This document shows positions 42,524 through 46,813 of a stretch of DNA of 64,000 nt, in pieces (the stretch's first letter is position 1; the number at the start of each line of letters is the position of its first letter). A model generated the notes under the pieces. It saw only the letters and a list, made by a program, of their open reading frames with translations, was not told the origin of the DNA and did not search any database. Origin of the DNA: Saccharopolyspora gregorii (GTDB lineage Bacteria; Actinomycetota; Actinomycetes; Mycobacteriales; Pseudonocardiaceae); assembly GCF_024734405.1 (NCBI RefSeq), contig NZ_CP059556.1, positions 2,418,001-2,482,000 of the forward strand, given 5' to 3'. The position numbers and the translations under genes are program-made.

Positions 42524-43201
42524 ATGCGAGTGCTGATCGTCGAGGACGAGCGCTACCTGGCCGAGGCGATCCGGGACGGCCTGCGGCTGGAGGCGATCGC
42601 CGCCGACGTGGCCGGGGACGGCGACACCGCGCTGGAGCTGCTGCAGGTCAACTCCTACGATCTCGCGGTCCTCGACCGGGACGTCCCCGGCCCGTCCGGG
42701 GACGACGTGGCGCGGTGGATCGTCGGCTCGGGCAGCGGGATCCCCATCCTGATGCTCACCGCCGCGGATCGGTTGCACGACAAGGAGACCGGCTTCGAGC
42801 TCGGCGCCGACGACTACTTGACGAAACCGTTCGCGCTGCGGGAGCTGGTGCTGCGGCTGCGCGCGCTGGACCGCAGGCGGGAGCGGTCCCGGCCGCCGGT
42901 GCGGGAGATCGCAGGGCTGCGGCTGGACCCGTTCCGGCGCGAGGTGTTCCGCGACGGCAGGCACGTCGCGCTCACCCGCAAGCAGTTCGCGGTGCTGGAA
43001 GTCCTCGTCGGCGCGGAGGGCGGCGTGGTCAGCGCGGAGGAGCTGCTGGCGCGGGCCTGGGACGAGAACGCCGACCCGTTCACCAACGCGGTCCGCATCA
43101 CGGTGTCCGCGCTGCGCAAACGGCTCGGCGAACCCTGGCTGATCGCGACCGTCCCCGGCGTCGGCTACCGGATCGAGGCCGCGGTGGACGACCGTGGCTA
43201 G
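42524..43201 (+). CDS. OmpR/VanR-like response regulator
   Basis: A 225-residue two-domain regulator. The receiver domain (1-115) has acidic pocket E8-D9, phospho-acceptor D51 (VLDRDVPG), Thr in MLTAAD and Lys in YLTKPF. The C-terminal winged helix (about 130-220) shows ALTRKQFAVLEVLVGAEGGVVSAEELLARAWDENADPFTNAVRITVSALRKRLG, the OmpR signature. Its TAG lies inside the histidine kinase start region (8-base overlap), so both are co-translated. It probably activates the divergent VanY-like gene. Confidence 0.93.
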   Translation: MRVLIVEDERYLAEAIRDGLRLEAIAADVAGDGDTALELLQVNSYDLAVLDRDVPGPSGDDVARWIVGSGSGIPILMLTAADRLHDKETGFELGADDYLTKPFALRELVLRLRALDRRRERSRPPVREIAGLRLDPFRREVFRDGRHVALTRKQFAVLEVLVGAEGGVVSAEELLARAWDENADPFTNAVRITVSALRKRLGEPWLIATVPGVGYRIEAAVDDRG

Positions 43202-44279
43202 GCGCCCCGGGATGAGCGCCCGGTTCAAGCTGGCCGTGAGCTACGCCGGGTTCCTCGTCGTCGCGAGCGCCCTGCTGCTCGCCGTGGTGTGGGTGTTCCT
43301 GCTGCGCTACGTGCCGGAACAGGTGAACACGCCGGGCGGTTTCGTGCCGGGGCGCCGGGACCTGGTGCGCGCGTTCGCGCCGAAGGCGGCGCTGGTGCTG
43401 GCGGCCGTGCTGGTGTTCGGGCTGGCCGGCGGCTGGTTCCTCGCCGGGCGGATGTTGTCGCCGCTGCGCCGGATCGGCGCGGCCGCGCGGCTGGCGGCGG
43501 ACGGTTCGCTCTCGCACCGGATCCGGTTGCCGGGGCGGCGGGACGAGTTCCGGGACCTCGCCGACGTCTTCGACGCCATGCTCGCGCAGCTGGAGGCGCA
43601 CACCGCGGAACAGCGGCGGTTCGCCGCGAACGCCTCGCACGAGCTGCGCACCCCGCTGGCGATCTCGCGGACGCTGCTCGACGTGGCCAGCCACGACCCG
43701 GACCCGGACGTGGACGCGCTCGTCACCCGGCTGCGGCAGGTCAACACCAGGGCAGTGGAGCTGACGGAGGCCCTGCTGCTGCTCGCCCGCGCCGACCGGG
43801 GTTCCTTCAGCAGCGAACCGGTCGACCTGTCGTTGCTGGTGGACGAGGCGGTCGAGACGTCGCTGCCGCTGGCCGAGCGGCGCGGTGTCGAGCTCGACGC
43901 GGGCGGGGACGCGGCGTGGGCGTCCGGTTCGGCGGCGCTGCTGCTGCCGATGGTGACGAACCTCGTGCAGAACGCGCTCGTGCACAACCTGCCGGGCGGG
44001 GGTGCGGTGCGGGTGCGCACCGAGGCGCGGCCGGACGTCGCGGTGCTGCTGGTCGAGAACACCGGCGCGGTCCTCCCGCCGGAGGTGGTGGGGACGTTGA
44101 CCGAGCCGTTCCAGCGCGGCGCGGAGCGGGTGCGCGACGACGAGCACGCGGGCGTCGGGCTCGGCCTGGCGATCGTGCGCAGCGTCGTGCGCGCGCACCA
44201 CGGGAACCTCGACCTGGCGCCCCGGCCCGGAGGTGGTCTCCGCATCACCGCCGAACTGCCCGCGGCGCGGCCGAGCTGA
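43194..44279 (+). CDS. Sensor histidine kinase, VanS-like
   Basis: A 361-residue inner-membrane kinase. Two transmembrane helices (AVSYAGFLVVASALLLAVVWVFLL near 14-37; AALVLAAVLVFGLAGGWFLAG near 64-84) enclose only about 25 outer residues, so sensing may occur in or near the membrane. A HAMP domain (LSPLRRIGAAARLAADGSL) is followed by the phospho-acceptor NASHELRTPLAISRTLLDVA, the N box QNALVHN and a GVGLGLAIVRSVV G box. The GTG at 43194 overlaps the regulator gene; an ATG at 43212 is the alternative. Confidence 0.92.
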   Translation: MARRPGMSARFKLAVSYAGFLVVASALLLAVVWVFLLRYVPEQVNTPGGFVPGRRDLVRAFAPKAALVLAAVLVFGLAGGWFLAGRMLSPLRRIGAAARLAADGSLSHRIRLPGRRDEFRDLADVFDAMLAQLEAHTAEQRRFAANASHELRTPLAISRTLLDVASHDPDPDVDALVTRLRQVNTRAVELTEALLLLARADRGSFSSEPVDLSLLVDEAVETSLPLAERRGVELDAGGDAAWASGSAALLLPMVTNLVQNALVHNLPGGGAVRVRTEARPDVAVLLVENTGAVLPPEVVGTLTEPFQRGAERVRDDEHAGVGLGLAIVRSVVRAHHGNLDLAPRPGGGLRITAELPAARPS

Positions 44280-44327: not shown

Positions 44328-45200
44328 TCAGCCGCGCAGGTCGAGGAGGTCGAACACCCGCATCCGGCCGGGTGCGGTGGCCGCGCAGGTCAACGGTCTC
44401 CCGGTGGCGACCCACCGCTCGCGCAGCCGCACCGCGACGTCCGGATCGGCGAGTTCCACCCGCCAGCCGGCGTCCCCGTCGGGTTCGACGGCGACGGGCC
44501 GCAGCTCGTCCACGCCGGTCGCCCCGGTGGCGGCCCGCGCGTGGTGCTGCGCGGCCTGCGCGGCCGGGGGCAGCGAGGTGCGGCCGCGCACCCAGCGGGC
44601 GTCGAGGTTCCCGGCGGCGTAGTCGCGCGCGGCCCCGACCGCGTCCACCGCCGGGATGCCGCCGAGGGCGTAGCCGTGCGGCAGCAGCACCAGCGCGGGC
44701 GCGAACCGGCAGCCGCCGAGGTGGCTGCACTCCCACGTGCCGCCGGGCGCCGCCGCGGCGAGGGCCGCGGCCACCGGTCGGCCGCGCACCGCGCAGCAGG
44801 TGTCGTGCCTGCCATGCGCGCACACCAGGTTCAGCGGCCCCGCGACGGGTTCGCCGGGTGCGTCCACCGCGTCGACCAGTTCGGCGGCCGAGGCGACCGC
44901 GCCGCCCCGGACGGATTCGCGTCCCGGCCGGGAGTCCACCCGGAACCAGCGGCGGACCGCTCCGCTCGCGTTGCGCCCGGGCCGGCGCACCAGCAGCACG
45001 CGCGCGCCCGCGTCGGCGGCCCACCCGGTGATCGCGGTGACGACGGCCGGGTCGAGCCCGGACCCGGTGAGCGCGTCCCGCCCCCACGGCCCGGGGTGTT
45101 CGAGGAGGAACCACCGCTGCGCGGGCGGCGCCGACCCCTCCAGCGGGTCGCCCGCGGCCTCGGCGACGAAGGAGCAGCGCGGCCAGTGGTGCCCGGTCAC
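44328..45200 (-). CDS. Sucrase-ferredoxin-like (thioredoxin-fold 2Fe-2S) protein
   Basis: A 290-residue cytoplasmic protein of the Suc_Fer-like family. It has WPRCSFVAEAAGDPLEGSA at the N-terminus, then the cluster-binding motifs C127-AHGRHDTCC (135-136) and C158-SHLGGC164 in the middle, followed by RFAPALVLLPHGYALGG. The remaining C-terminal 100 residues are family-typical. Members probably bind a [2Fe-2S] cluster and transfer electrons; no reaction is defined. The GTG overlaps the oxygenase stop by 4 bases (GTGA). It is the third gene after the repeat peptide and the JmjC oxygenase, so it may serve as their redox partner. That role is inferred. Confidence 0.82.
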   Translation of the reverse strand: MTGHHWPRCSFVAEAAGDPLEGSAPPAQRWFLLEHPGPWGRDALTGSGLDPAVVTAITGWAADAGARVLLVRRPGRNASGAVRRWFRVDSRPGRESVRGGAVASAAELVDAVDAPGEPVAGPLNLVCAHGRHDTCCAVRGRPVAAALAAAAPGGTWECSHLGGCRFAPALVLLPHGYALGGIPAVDAVGAARDYAAGNLDARWVRGRTSLPPAAQAAQHHARAATGATGVDELRPVAVEPDGDAGWRVELADPDVAVRLRERWVATGRPLTCAATAPGRMRVFDLLDLRG

Positions 45201-46453
45201 GGGAAGGCCGCGGGGACGAGCACGCCCTCCCGCAGCAGCCTGCGGACCAGCACGACCTGATCGGCCTCGTCCAGCCCGGGCAGCTCGCCCACCCGGAACG
45301 TGCCGCCGGTGAGCAGTTCGCGCACGGCGTCCGCGGTGCCCGCGGGCAGCGCGAGCCACCGGTCCGGCAGCTCCAGCACCACTTCGTCCGCGCCGTCGAC
45401 GACCCGGTGGTGCAGCCCGGCACGCCGCCGCACGGCGTCCCCGGCCGCCAGCCCGCCGGCGAACTCGGCGGTGGCGACCGGCCGCACCGGTTCGGGACGC
45501 CCGCCGGACCAGACCCGGCCGCGGACGCGGCGCGCGACGTCGTCGGCGGGCACCTCCCGCAGCGCGCGGGTGAGCGCGGCGCGCACCGCGTCGAGGTGCG
45601 GGGCGAGCTCCACGGGGTCGGCGACGTCGACGCCCAGCGGCAGCGAGGCCCGCAGCTCCGGGTCCCGCGCGCAGAGCGCGGTCAGCGCCTCCACCAGCGC
45701 GAACCGGGTCAGCACGTGCACGCCCACCGTCAGGTGCGCCGACACGTCGCCGAGCGCGGTCGCGGCGTGCAGCCACCCGCGCGGCAGGTACATCGCATCG
45801 CCCGGCTCCAGCACCGCGTCGATCTCCGGAGCCTCGTCGCGCGCGCGTGCGGTGACGGCCGACGCGTGGTCGTTCCACGGCTGGTCGCGCAGCGGGTCCG
45901 GGTGCACGGGCGCGTGCACCGTCCAGTGCTTGCGCCCGGCGAGCTGCAGCACGAACACGTCGTGCACGTCGTAGTGGGCGGCGAACCCGCGGGAGGACGG
46001 CGGCGTCACGTACGCGTTGGCCTGCACCGGATGGCCGAGTTCCGCGGCGAGGCCGGTGGTGAGGTCGATGACCCCGGACCAGGTCCGATGCAGCGCCTGC
46101 AGCACCACGGTGGTCCCGTCGGCGAACAGCGCGGCGACCCGGTCGTCGCGCACCTGGTCGCCGATCTCGGCGCCCACCCCGCCGGGCCCGGTGAACGATC
46201 CGGAATCGACGACCTCGCCCTGCTTGGCGAGGCGCAGGAACGGGGTGCGCAGGCCGCGGCGGGAGAGCAGCTCGTCGACGCCGTCGAGGTCGAGCACGTC
46301 CCGGAACGAGTCCGGGTCGGCGCCGCGCCGCAGCAGCGGTTCGCGGCCCCAGTGCCGCCGGGCGAACGCGTCCACGTCGGGCCCCACGACGCGGGAGAGC
46401 GCCGCCGCGGGTGCGGCGGCGCCCTCCACGGGGCTGCTCAGTTCAGCGGGCAC
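45197..46453 (-). CDS. JmjC/cupin-4 oxygenase (ribosomal-oxygenase-like)
   Basis: A 418-residue Fe(II)/2-oxoglutarate oxygenase. The N-terminal part reads VDAFARRHWGREPLLRRGADPDSF, as in the YcfD/MINA53/NO66 protein hydroxylases. The double-stranded beta-helix carries the metal triad H160-Y-D162 and H229 (GDAMYLPRGWLHAA), plus the 2-oxoglutarate Lys in RKHWTVHAP. A dimerisation/winged-helix C-terminus follows (about 330-418). Relatives hydroxylate Arg or His in proteins. The GTG at 46453 overlaps the end of the repeat-peptide gene by 11 bases. The three-repeat peptide, with one His per repeat, is the obvious candidate substrate; not proven. Confidence 0.85.
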   Translation of the reverse strand: MPAELSSPVEGAAAPAAALSRVVGPDVDAFARRHWGREPLLRRGADPDSFRDVLDLDGVDELLSRRGLRTPFLRLAKQGEVVDSGSFTGPGGVGAEIGDQVRDDRVAALFADGTTVVLQALHRTWSGVIDLTTGLAAELGHPVQANAYVTPPSSRGFAAHYDVHDVFVLQLAGRKHWTVHAPVHPDPLRDQPWNDHASAVTARARDEAPEIDAVLEPGDAMYLPRGWLHAATALGDVSAHLTVGVHVLTRFALVEALTALCARDPELRASLPLGVDVADPVELAPHLDAVRAALTRALREVPADDVARRVRGRVWSGGRPEPVRPVATAEFAGGLAAGDAVRRRAGLHHRVVDGADEVVLELPDRWLALPAGTADAVRELLTGGTFRVGELPGLDEADQVVLVRRLLREGVLVPAAFP

Positions 46454-46736
46454 CGCTGTCGGCTCCGCCGTCCGCCCCACCGTCGTGCTGGCCGGGCGTG
46501 CCGCGGCCGGTCCCCGAGTCGGCGGGCCCTTCGGCCGAGCCGTCGGCGCCCCCGTCGTGCTGGCCCGGTGTGCCGCGCCCGGCGCCGGAGTCGGCCGGGC
46601 CCTCGGCGCCTCCGTCGGCTCCGCCGTCCGCGCCGCCGTCGTGCTGGCCGGGCGTGCCGCCTCCGGCGCCGGAGTCGGCCGGGCCCTCCGGTCCACCGCT
46701 GCCCGAACTCCTGATGTCATCGTCGTCGAGAGCCAC
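46443..46736 (-). CDS. Three-repeat Gly/Asp/Ala-rich peptide, probable substrate of the adjacent oxygenase
   Basis: A 97-residue acidic peptide with a leader-like start (MALDDDDIRSSGSGG) and three imperfect repeats of 24-28 residues beginning at E17, E45 and E69. Each contains EGPADSG, then GTPGQHDGGADG, with spacers of ADGGA type. It has no Cys or aromatic residue and would be unfolded in solution. The GTG at 46736 is supported by a near-perfect ribosome site (GAGGAGG, 5 bases before). Its stop overlaps the JmjC start, so the two are coupled. It looks like a multi-core precursor or a protein-hydroxylase substrate. The real start and reading frame are secure from the ribosome site and overlap. 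Confidence 0.78.
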   Translation of the reverse strand: MALDDDDIRSSGSGGPEGPADSGAGGGTPGQHDGGADGGADGGAEGPADSGAGRGTPGQHDGGADGSAEGPADSGTGRGTPGQHDGGADGGADSGAR

Positions 46737-46813
46737 CTGAGCCTCCTCGGTAGTGCGCGGTCACCGCCAGTGCTCCTCCCGATTACCCGGCGCCGCGCGA
46801 AATATGCCGTGGA

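Follow-up and report, generated by a model that had tools for sequence, protein, structure and literature searches.

A conserved gene pair of repeat peptide and JmjC oxygenase in Saccharopolyspora gregorii and other actinomycetes, a putative peptide modification system

In the genome of Saccharopolyspora gregorii, a window of 64,000 nucleotides (nt; contig NZ_CP059556.1, positions 2,418,001 to 2,482,000) was analyzed, in which three genes with overlapping ends, all on the minus strand, encode a short repeat peptide, a JmjC/cupin-4 oxygenase and a Suc_Fer-like protein (window positions 44328-46736). The pairing of repeat peptide and JmjC oxygenase, which is present in many actinomycetes, suggests a type of enzyme-modified peptide that has not been described. 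As judged from sequence comparisons, the reading that is slightly favored is a pair resembling the ribosomally synthesized and post-translationally modified peptides (RiPPs), in which the JmjC enzyme would hydroxylate aspartate (Asp) in the repeat peptide encoded next to it, and a [2Fe-2S]-type protein would act as partner where present. The gene anatomy, the selection on the peptide, the association of both genes in two search directions, the intact catalytic residues and the predicted folds were established directly, and the trio occurs widely as a genuine genetic system. The following features were assigned:

46742..46748, minus strand: ribosome-binding site GAGGAGG, 5 nt before the GTG of the peptide gene, also found in the five other genomes of the genus that were compared
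46443..46736, minus strand: repeat peptide gene, 97 amino acids, GTG start; ratio of nonsynonymous to synonymous differences per site (pN/pS) in this frame 0.108, homologues in relatives
46710..46736, minus strand: acidic leader MALDDDDIR, fitting a crude DDD[IM]-type pattern
46605..46688, minus strand: repeat 1, EGPADSGAGGGTPGQHDGGADGGADGGA
46533..46604, minus strand: repeat 2, EGPADSGAGRGTPGQHDGGADGSA
46449..46532, minus strand: repeat 3, EGPADSGTGRGTPGQHDGGADGGADSGA
45197..46453, minus strand: JmjC (cupin-4, PF08007) oxygenase, 418 amino acids, probable GTG start; PF08007 E-value 1.3e-26
44328..45200, minus strand: Suc_Fer-like (PF06999) thioredoxin-like [2Fe-2S] ferredoxin-type protein, 290 amino acids; PF06999 E-value 1.5e-12

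The trio with its overlaps and its span, as well as a near-perfect ribosome site, had been described in an earlier sequence-only reading of this DNA, and all of this was confirmed, the ribosome site being conserved in six genomes of the genus. The probable JmjC start codon GTG (46453-46451) precedes the peptide stop codon (46445-46443), which results in an overlap of 11 nt, and the JmjC stop codon and the GTG start codon of the Suc_Fer gene overlap as GTGA. The host genome, a single contig of 6.34 Mb, contains one match to the JmjC protein and one match to the peptide profile described below.

The peptide contains three repeats of the type EGPADSG...GTPGQHDGGADG, each carrying GTPGQHDGGADG, and across 15 aligned peptides the residues D21, D33, G34, G35, A36, D37 and G38 are invariant. 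For the six genomes of the genus, 469.9 synonymous differences at 1178.5 sites and 137.1 nonsynonymous differences at 3198.5 sites were counted in the peptide frame, summed over all genome pairs, which are not independent of each other. The resulting pN/pS of 0.108 contrasts with 3.58 and 4.25 in the two other frames; the low value in its own frame means that selection keeps the amino acid sequence, and the peptide is thus under purifying selection. The same comparison by frame ruled out a second frame as a real gene, which had been considered as the JmjC frame is open through the peptide region. The number of repeats differs between species, as the sequence-only reading had suggested should be checked. 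No match to the peptide was found in Pfam or NCBIfam, and for six further peptides from relatives there was neither an NCBIfam match nor a Pfam match above the cut-off; the peptide of locus L130 gave one Pfam match far below it (12.9 bits compared to 29.9).

JmjC homologues were searched in 60 relatives (34 with a match), in one contig collection (16 loci) and in 393 genomes of the bacterial class (133 with a match at an E-value threshold of 0.001, at most four candidates per genome being scored). From the ranking of the 393 genomes, 60 regions were drawn in descending order, some weaker rows being skipped. In total, 133 loci were read and 130 were counted after the duplicates L031, L032 and L046 had been dropped. 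They were divided at 45% identity, measured on the best local tblastn segment against the S. gregorii JmjC protein, and the upstream peptides were assigned by an automatic rule to class A (DGGAD or AD[GS]GA repeats) or class B (DADGTD- or DGDATD-type repeats).

Among the 86 loci with a JmjC identity of at least 45%, a class A repeat peptide is encoded directly upstream in 84, and a Suc_Fer gene directly downstream in 73; it is missing in 12, and in one case the contig ends too early. Over all class A and class B loci, the peptide stop lies between -64 and +59 nt from the point matching JmjC residue 1, with a median of +4. The two exceptions (L095 and L096, from one genus) have neither a repeat peptide nor an adjacent Suc_Fer gene. 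The search for oxygenases without a nearby repeat peptide, which the sequence-only reading had named as a check, thus did not refute the pairing within this subfamily. In L095 and L096, a different acidic open reading frame (ORF) with a shared tail like GADLPEDQADGQGPTVEPGA is located upstream of the JmjC gene.

The association was also examined in the reverse direction with a peptide profile of 15 aligned peptides, all of them JmjC-associated. This profile matched 58 of the 393 genomes (including that of S. gregorii itself), and in 56 of these the best match was located at most 380 nt from a JmjC match; as a rough calculation shows, a position picked at random from a genome of 4-6 Mb would fall so near about once in several thousand. 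Both remaining matches are weak (E-values 4e-4 and 1e-4) and lie on simple repeats in genomes without a JmjC match, one of them being, by eye, a kinase gene with PASTA-like repeats that was matched in another frame. Across the phylum, the profile matched 10 of 296 genomes (that of S. gregorii included), all of the same class, the number of searched genomes from outside the class not being given. The conserved association of peptide and oxygenase therefore holds in both search directions.

By a crude pattern, the DDD[IM]-type leader is present in 59 of the 85 peptides of class A and in 9 of the 12 of class B, though the cores of the two classes differ. The class A cores comprise 45-275 residues with 6-32 Asp each, where the upper lengths may include over-extended frames.

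In the JmjC protein, the residues H160, D162 and H229, which we take to be the iron triad, and K175, presumably the lysine binding 2-oxoglutarate (2OG), are the same in all 53 aligned members. An AlphaFold model was obtained with a mean predicted local distance difference test score (pLDDT) of 94.7 and a predicted template modeling score (pTM) of 0.91. The nearest solved structures are the protein hydroxylases NO66, MINA53 and YcfD, and the Foldseek alignment with NO66 covers most of the length (E-value 4e-29, TM-score 0.69, 24% identity). The C-terminal domain (approximately residues 340-414), which was not compared on its own, has a strand-helix order that fits a winged helix and is read as winged-helix-like; a C-terminal winged helix is a feature of the NO66/YcfD family of ribosomal oxygenases. 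With these ribosomal oxygenases, the JmjC protein thus shares the fold, the iron triad and the 2OG-type lysine, whereas it differs from them in its location directly behind a short repeat peptide gene and in its patchy distribution within the bacterial class. Furthermore, NO66 has Ile, Glu and Ala where the JmjC protein has H164, D165 and R123. Position 123 is Arg in 48 of 53 members and H164 is kept in 52; R123 and H164, aligned with Ala and Ile of NO66, might be suited to an acidic substrate. A possible co-variation of the class A leader motif with a motif at the JmjC C-terminus (both in 49 of 85 loci, neither in 16, only one in 20) is a lead only, as it mostly reflects one clade, uses crude patterns and includes a few truncated loci.

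As in RiPP systems, an encoded precursor under selection and a candidate modifying enzyme encoded alongside it were found. In the proposed mechanism, translation would yield a small acidic peptide in which a leader, usually of the DDD[IM] type, precedes tandem cores with a high content of Asp, Gly and Ala. The peptide stop overlaps or lies near the JmjC start, so that enzyme and substrate are probably produced jointly. With the architecture of a ribosomal oxygenase, the JmjC enzyme would then bind the leader, perhaps via its C-terminal domain, a leader-reading role for which the chances appear evenly balanced. Within the repeats, it would hydroxylate the side chains of several Asp per molecule, probably at C-3. 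Where present, the thioredoxin-like [2Fe-2S]-type protein would move electrons, for example by keeping the iron reduced; this electron role is conceivable, at somewhat less than even chances.

That the peptide is the substrate of the JmjC enzyme is considered likely from the comparative data. If it is, Asp is probably the modified residue, and the balance tips a little in favor of both statements holding jointly. A biological use such as metal binding is rather unlikely. At most tentatively, the system can be regarded as a new RiPP class, known so far in one bacterial class, in which a single JmjC protein would act as both leader reader and catalyst and hydroxylate most or all Asp of Asp-Gly-Ala repeats to give a metal-binding poly(3-hydroxyaspartyl) peptide, with a ferredoxin of non-Apd1 ligands as electron partner, the enzyme family having repeatedly exchanged its substrate peptide (classes A and B with repeats, classes D, E and F with short peptides). 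For such a putative RiPP-like class, the hydroxylation of peptides by cupin-type enzymes is known, while no record of the precursor family and the gene pair was found among the literature listed.

The sequence-only reading had proposed His, Asp or Pro of each repeat as the target. Of the 84 distinct class A cores, 18 contain no His and 5 no Pro, and the 12 class B cores lack His in 11 and Pro in 9 cases; these counts are lower bounds, because some cores are perhaps over-extended upstream. Due to their absence from many cores, His and Pro were ruled out as general targets. Asp, Gly and Ala are present in all class A and class B cores, and the JmjC enzyme FIH hydroxylates aspartyl residues of AnkyrinR, according to the part of the source consulted (PMC4543633). 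Being universal in the cores and of a kind modified by FIH, Asp is the best general candidate and the one of the three residues proposed earlier that is retained.

Several observations weigh against Asp hydroxylation of the repeat peptide. Asp shares its universality in the cores with Gly and Ala, and its presence in every core is partly due to construction, because the motifs defining classes A and B contain it; these motifs nonetheless fit nearly the whole subfamily (84/86 loci), and the other short peptides hold Asp too. The nearest solved JmjC relatives modify His or Arg, and R123 is replaced by Glu in 5 of 53 members. The leader motif is absent from 26 of 85 class A peptides, the 44 loci below 45% identity include 16 in which no peptide of the kinds described here was recognized, and the ferredoxin gene is not adjacent to the JmjC gene in 12 of 86 loci. 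Furthermore, no protease, transporter or second modifying enzyme recurs on the operon strand in at least 8 of 56 neighborhoods, and the lack of a conserved protease or transporter nearby at this threshold is unusual for a secreted RiPP. A dedicated protease or exporter is common in RiPP systems and is not obligatory; the peptide may act intracellularly or depend on enzymes that are encoded elsewhere.

The universality of Gly and Ala also speaks for a different modification of the same substrate, namely alpha-hydroxylation of Gly with backbone cleavage, further oxidation of Asp, or a hydroxylation of His or Pro restricted to some lineages. An unusual residue, ornithine, is accepted by the cupin-like RiPP enzyme PbsQ, as far as the source was available (PMC12257519), and a ferredoxin-type partner could permit further oxidation. 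Among the universal residues, however, side-chain hydroxylation by JmjC enzymes is reported for Asp alone in the portions of the literature consulted, and His is lacking in 18/84 class A and 11/12 class B cores, so that another target or chemistry is considered unlikely, with a chance that is still appreciable. An improbable alternative is an unmodified peptide that serves the downstream proteins as metal-binding partner, i.e., as an iron donor or buffer in which Asp chelates the metal. The acidic low-complexity cores, with 6-32 Asp each in class A, would fit this role, as would the fact that the JmjC and Suc_Fer proteins are both iron proteins by family; against it, most members have a distinct leader followed by repeats in which Asp is regularly placed, and some of the short peptides of distant relatives are so poor in Asp (4 in L029, 7 in L131) that they are implausible as a metal store.

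Slightly less probable still is an ordinary ribosomal oxygenase that acts on a ribosomal protein and is preceded by a peptide ORF functioning as a translational coupling leader or regulator. Both the closest solved structures and the overlap of the peptide stop with the probable JmjC start are in line with this explanation, but a coupling leader needs neither a conserved peptide sequence (pN/pS 0.108) nor a varying number of repeats, and JmjC matches are found in only 133 of the 393 genomes. Several long open frames overlap at the locus, as would be expected if the repeat ORF were a by-product of GC-rich repeats and no gene; the low pN/pS compared to the other frames, the conserved ribosome site and leader, and a position kept in 84/86 loci leave this explanation a negligible probability.

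The Suc_Fer-like protein matches PF06999 with 48.4 bits (gathering cut-off 34.9), and its structure model has a pLDDT of 95.5. The six best Foldseek rows all represent the thioredoxin-like [2Fe-2S] ferredoxin of Aquifex with probabilities of 0.99-1.00, 1m2a being the top match (probability 1.00, E-value 0.017), and none of the E-values is below 0.001. A search of the sequence against the PDB gave a single match with an E-value of 0.083, which corresponds to chance. The site motif reads C-X8-C-X23-H-X-G-G-C, and the Apd1-type bis-histidinyl motif C-X8-C-X24-75-H-X-G-G-H was not found in the S. gregorii protein. In an alignment of 45 operon members, which omits L108, the last motif position is occupied by Asp in 37 proteins, by Cys in 7 (S. 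gregorii included) and by Glu in one, and never by His. According to the part of the source that was consulted, Apd1/Aim32 are similar in the match to the thioredoxin-like ferredoxin fold and in the sequence C-X8-C followed by H-X-G-G, whereas their motif ends in His (PMC11138216). The Asp, Cys or Glu in place of the second His of HXGGH possibly represents a new set of [2Fe-2S] ligands.

Matches to the Suc_Fer family (E-value 1e-10) occur in 206 of 393 genomes, some of them without a JmjC match (e.g., G074), and since the family is wider than the operon, Suc_Fer looks like a recruited partner. In 8 loci without Suc_Fer that were inspected by eye, no recurrent substitute gene could be found behind the JmjC gene. 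The Fe-S partner of the sequence-only reading can thus be kept as a usual neighbor of the JmjC gene (73/86 loci); it is not an obligatory component.

Below 45% identity, the 44 loci include one class A and 12 class B peptides by the automatic rule, and 11 of the 12 class B loci contain Suc_Fer. A further 15 loci were assigned by eye to class B (to which L021 and L100 were added) or to other short peptides. As candidate upstream ORFs were ranked by acidity, which favors acidic ones, the real evidence for these peptides is the agreement among members of a clade. Peptides of 35-38 amino acids with the C-terminus GGDNDGTDSSSDFI or a close variant (class D) are encoded upstream of a distant JmjC gene in 6 of 6 members of one clade (L122, L123, L126, L128, L131 and L132), and the one that was searched has no Pfam or NCBIfam match. 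Class E (L027, L028 and L029) is of the type SGLL.GVE.L..AVDRGKANGAV[AT]DNDGND, with the C-terminus NGAV[AT]DNDGND, a distant JmjC gene and Suc_Fer behind it, and resembles a precursor of leader and core. A C-terminus like SDGGGTGKGDGND characterizes class F (L121 and L127), to which the peptides of L129 and L130 are more loosely related. In L104 (genome G383), a Cys-containing ORF of 45 amino acids with the C-terminus PQFLICDPDPSDDCWIVCNPNYCY, unlike the other peptides, is located upstream of the JmjC gene and is perhaps another RiPP precursor.

On a JmjC tree of 124 rows, the class A label changes twice compared to a mean of 35.7 changes after shuffling, and all labels together change 10 times compared to 40.1; in view of these few changes, the peptide type follows the phylogeny of the enzyme. 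This is a quick tree (LG+G4) with long branches, in which 3 of 6 class D and 2 of 3 class E rows are labeled and class F is unlabeled. It omits L031, L032, L046, L025, L101 and L106 as well as the loci with short frames, L071, L083 and L113.

Among the matches listed in a search of open-licence literature, no published description of the trio was found, and the papers listed for GGADGG-like strings are unrelated by title. The related systems are described here from those parts of the sources that were consulted. In biphenomycin-type clusters, PbsQ is a side-chain hydroxylase of a ribosomal peptide, and the same is predicted for BpmG (PMC12257519). These clusters likewise contain the gene of a JmjC/cupin-like enzyme within a peptide cluster, and PbsQ differs in acting on ornithine that is first made by a multinuclear non-heme iron-dependent oxidative enzyme (MNIO) together with an arginase (PMC12257519). 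In the system described here, in contrast, the JmjC protein is the only conserved oxygenase and the core consists of Asp-Gly-Ala repeats. RiPP recognition element (RRE)-like domains fused to PF08007 JmjC proteins, with the closest bacterial homologues in RiPP-like contexts, are reported in mSystems 2025 (PMC12710340); in the portion consulted, these JmjC-RRE proteins are mentioned briefly, without precursor family, taxa or ferredoxin partner. In the nitrilobacillin pathway, 3-hydroxyaspartate is made in a ribosomal peptide by an enzyme of the MNIO family, which differs from JmjC proteins, and at one residue, Asp21 (PMC13060819).

If the proposed reading is true, the gene pair would represent a compact system that hydroxylates a protein made of repeats, and would assign a natural role to the cupin-4 proteins of a large actinobacterial clade, which resemble ribosomal oxygenases. 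In addition, RiPP enzymes might then be connected in evolution with the ribosomal oxygenases, which animals also possess.

A scan of the locus for promoters and terminators found none. A response regulator and histidine kinase pair (42524-44279, plus strand) is convergent with the operon and gives no sign of belonging to it, and the gene of a GNAT acetyltransferase is located upstream of the trio on the same strand. In the 56 neighborhoods, the families recurring at least 8 times are JmjC (56) and Suc_Fer (44) together with other reading frames of both, and one further family, by eye similar to an ABC transporter ATPase, which is present in 8 loci and, in 7 of its 9 occurrences, is encoded on the opposite strand.

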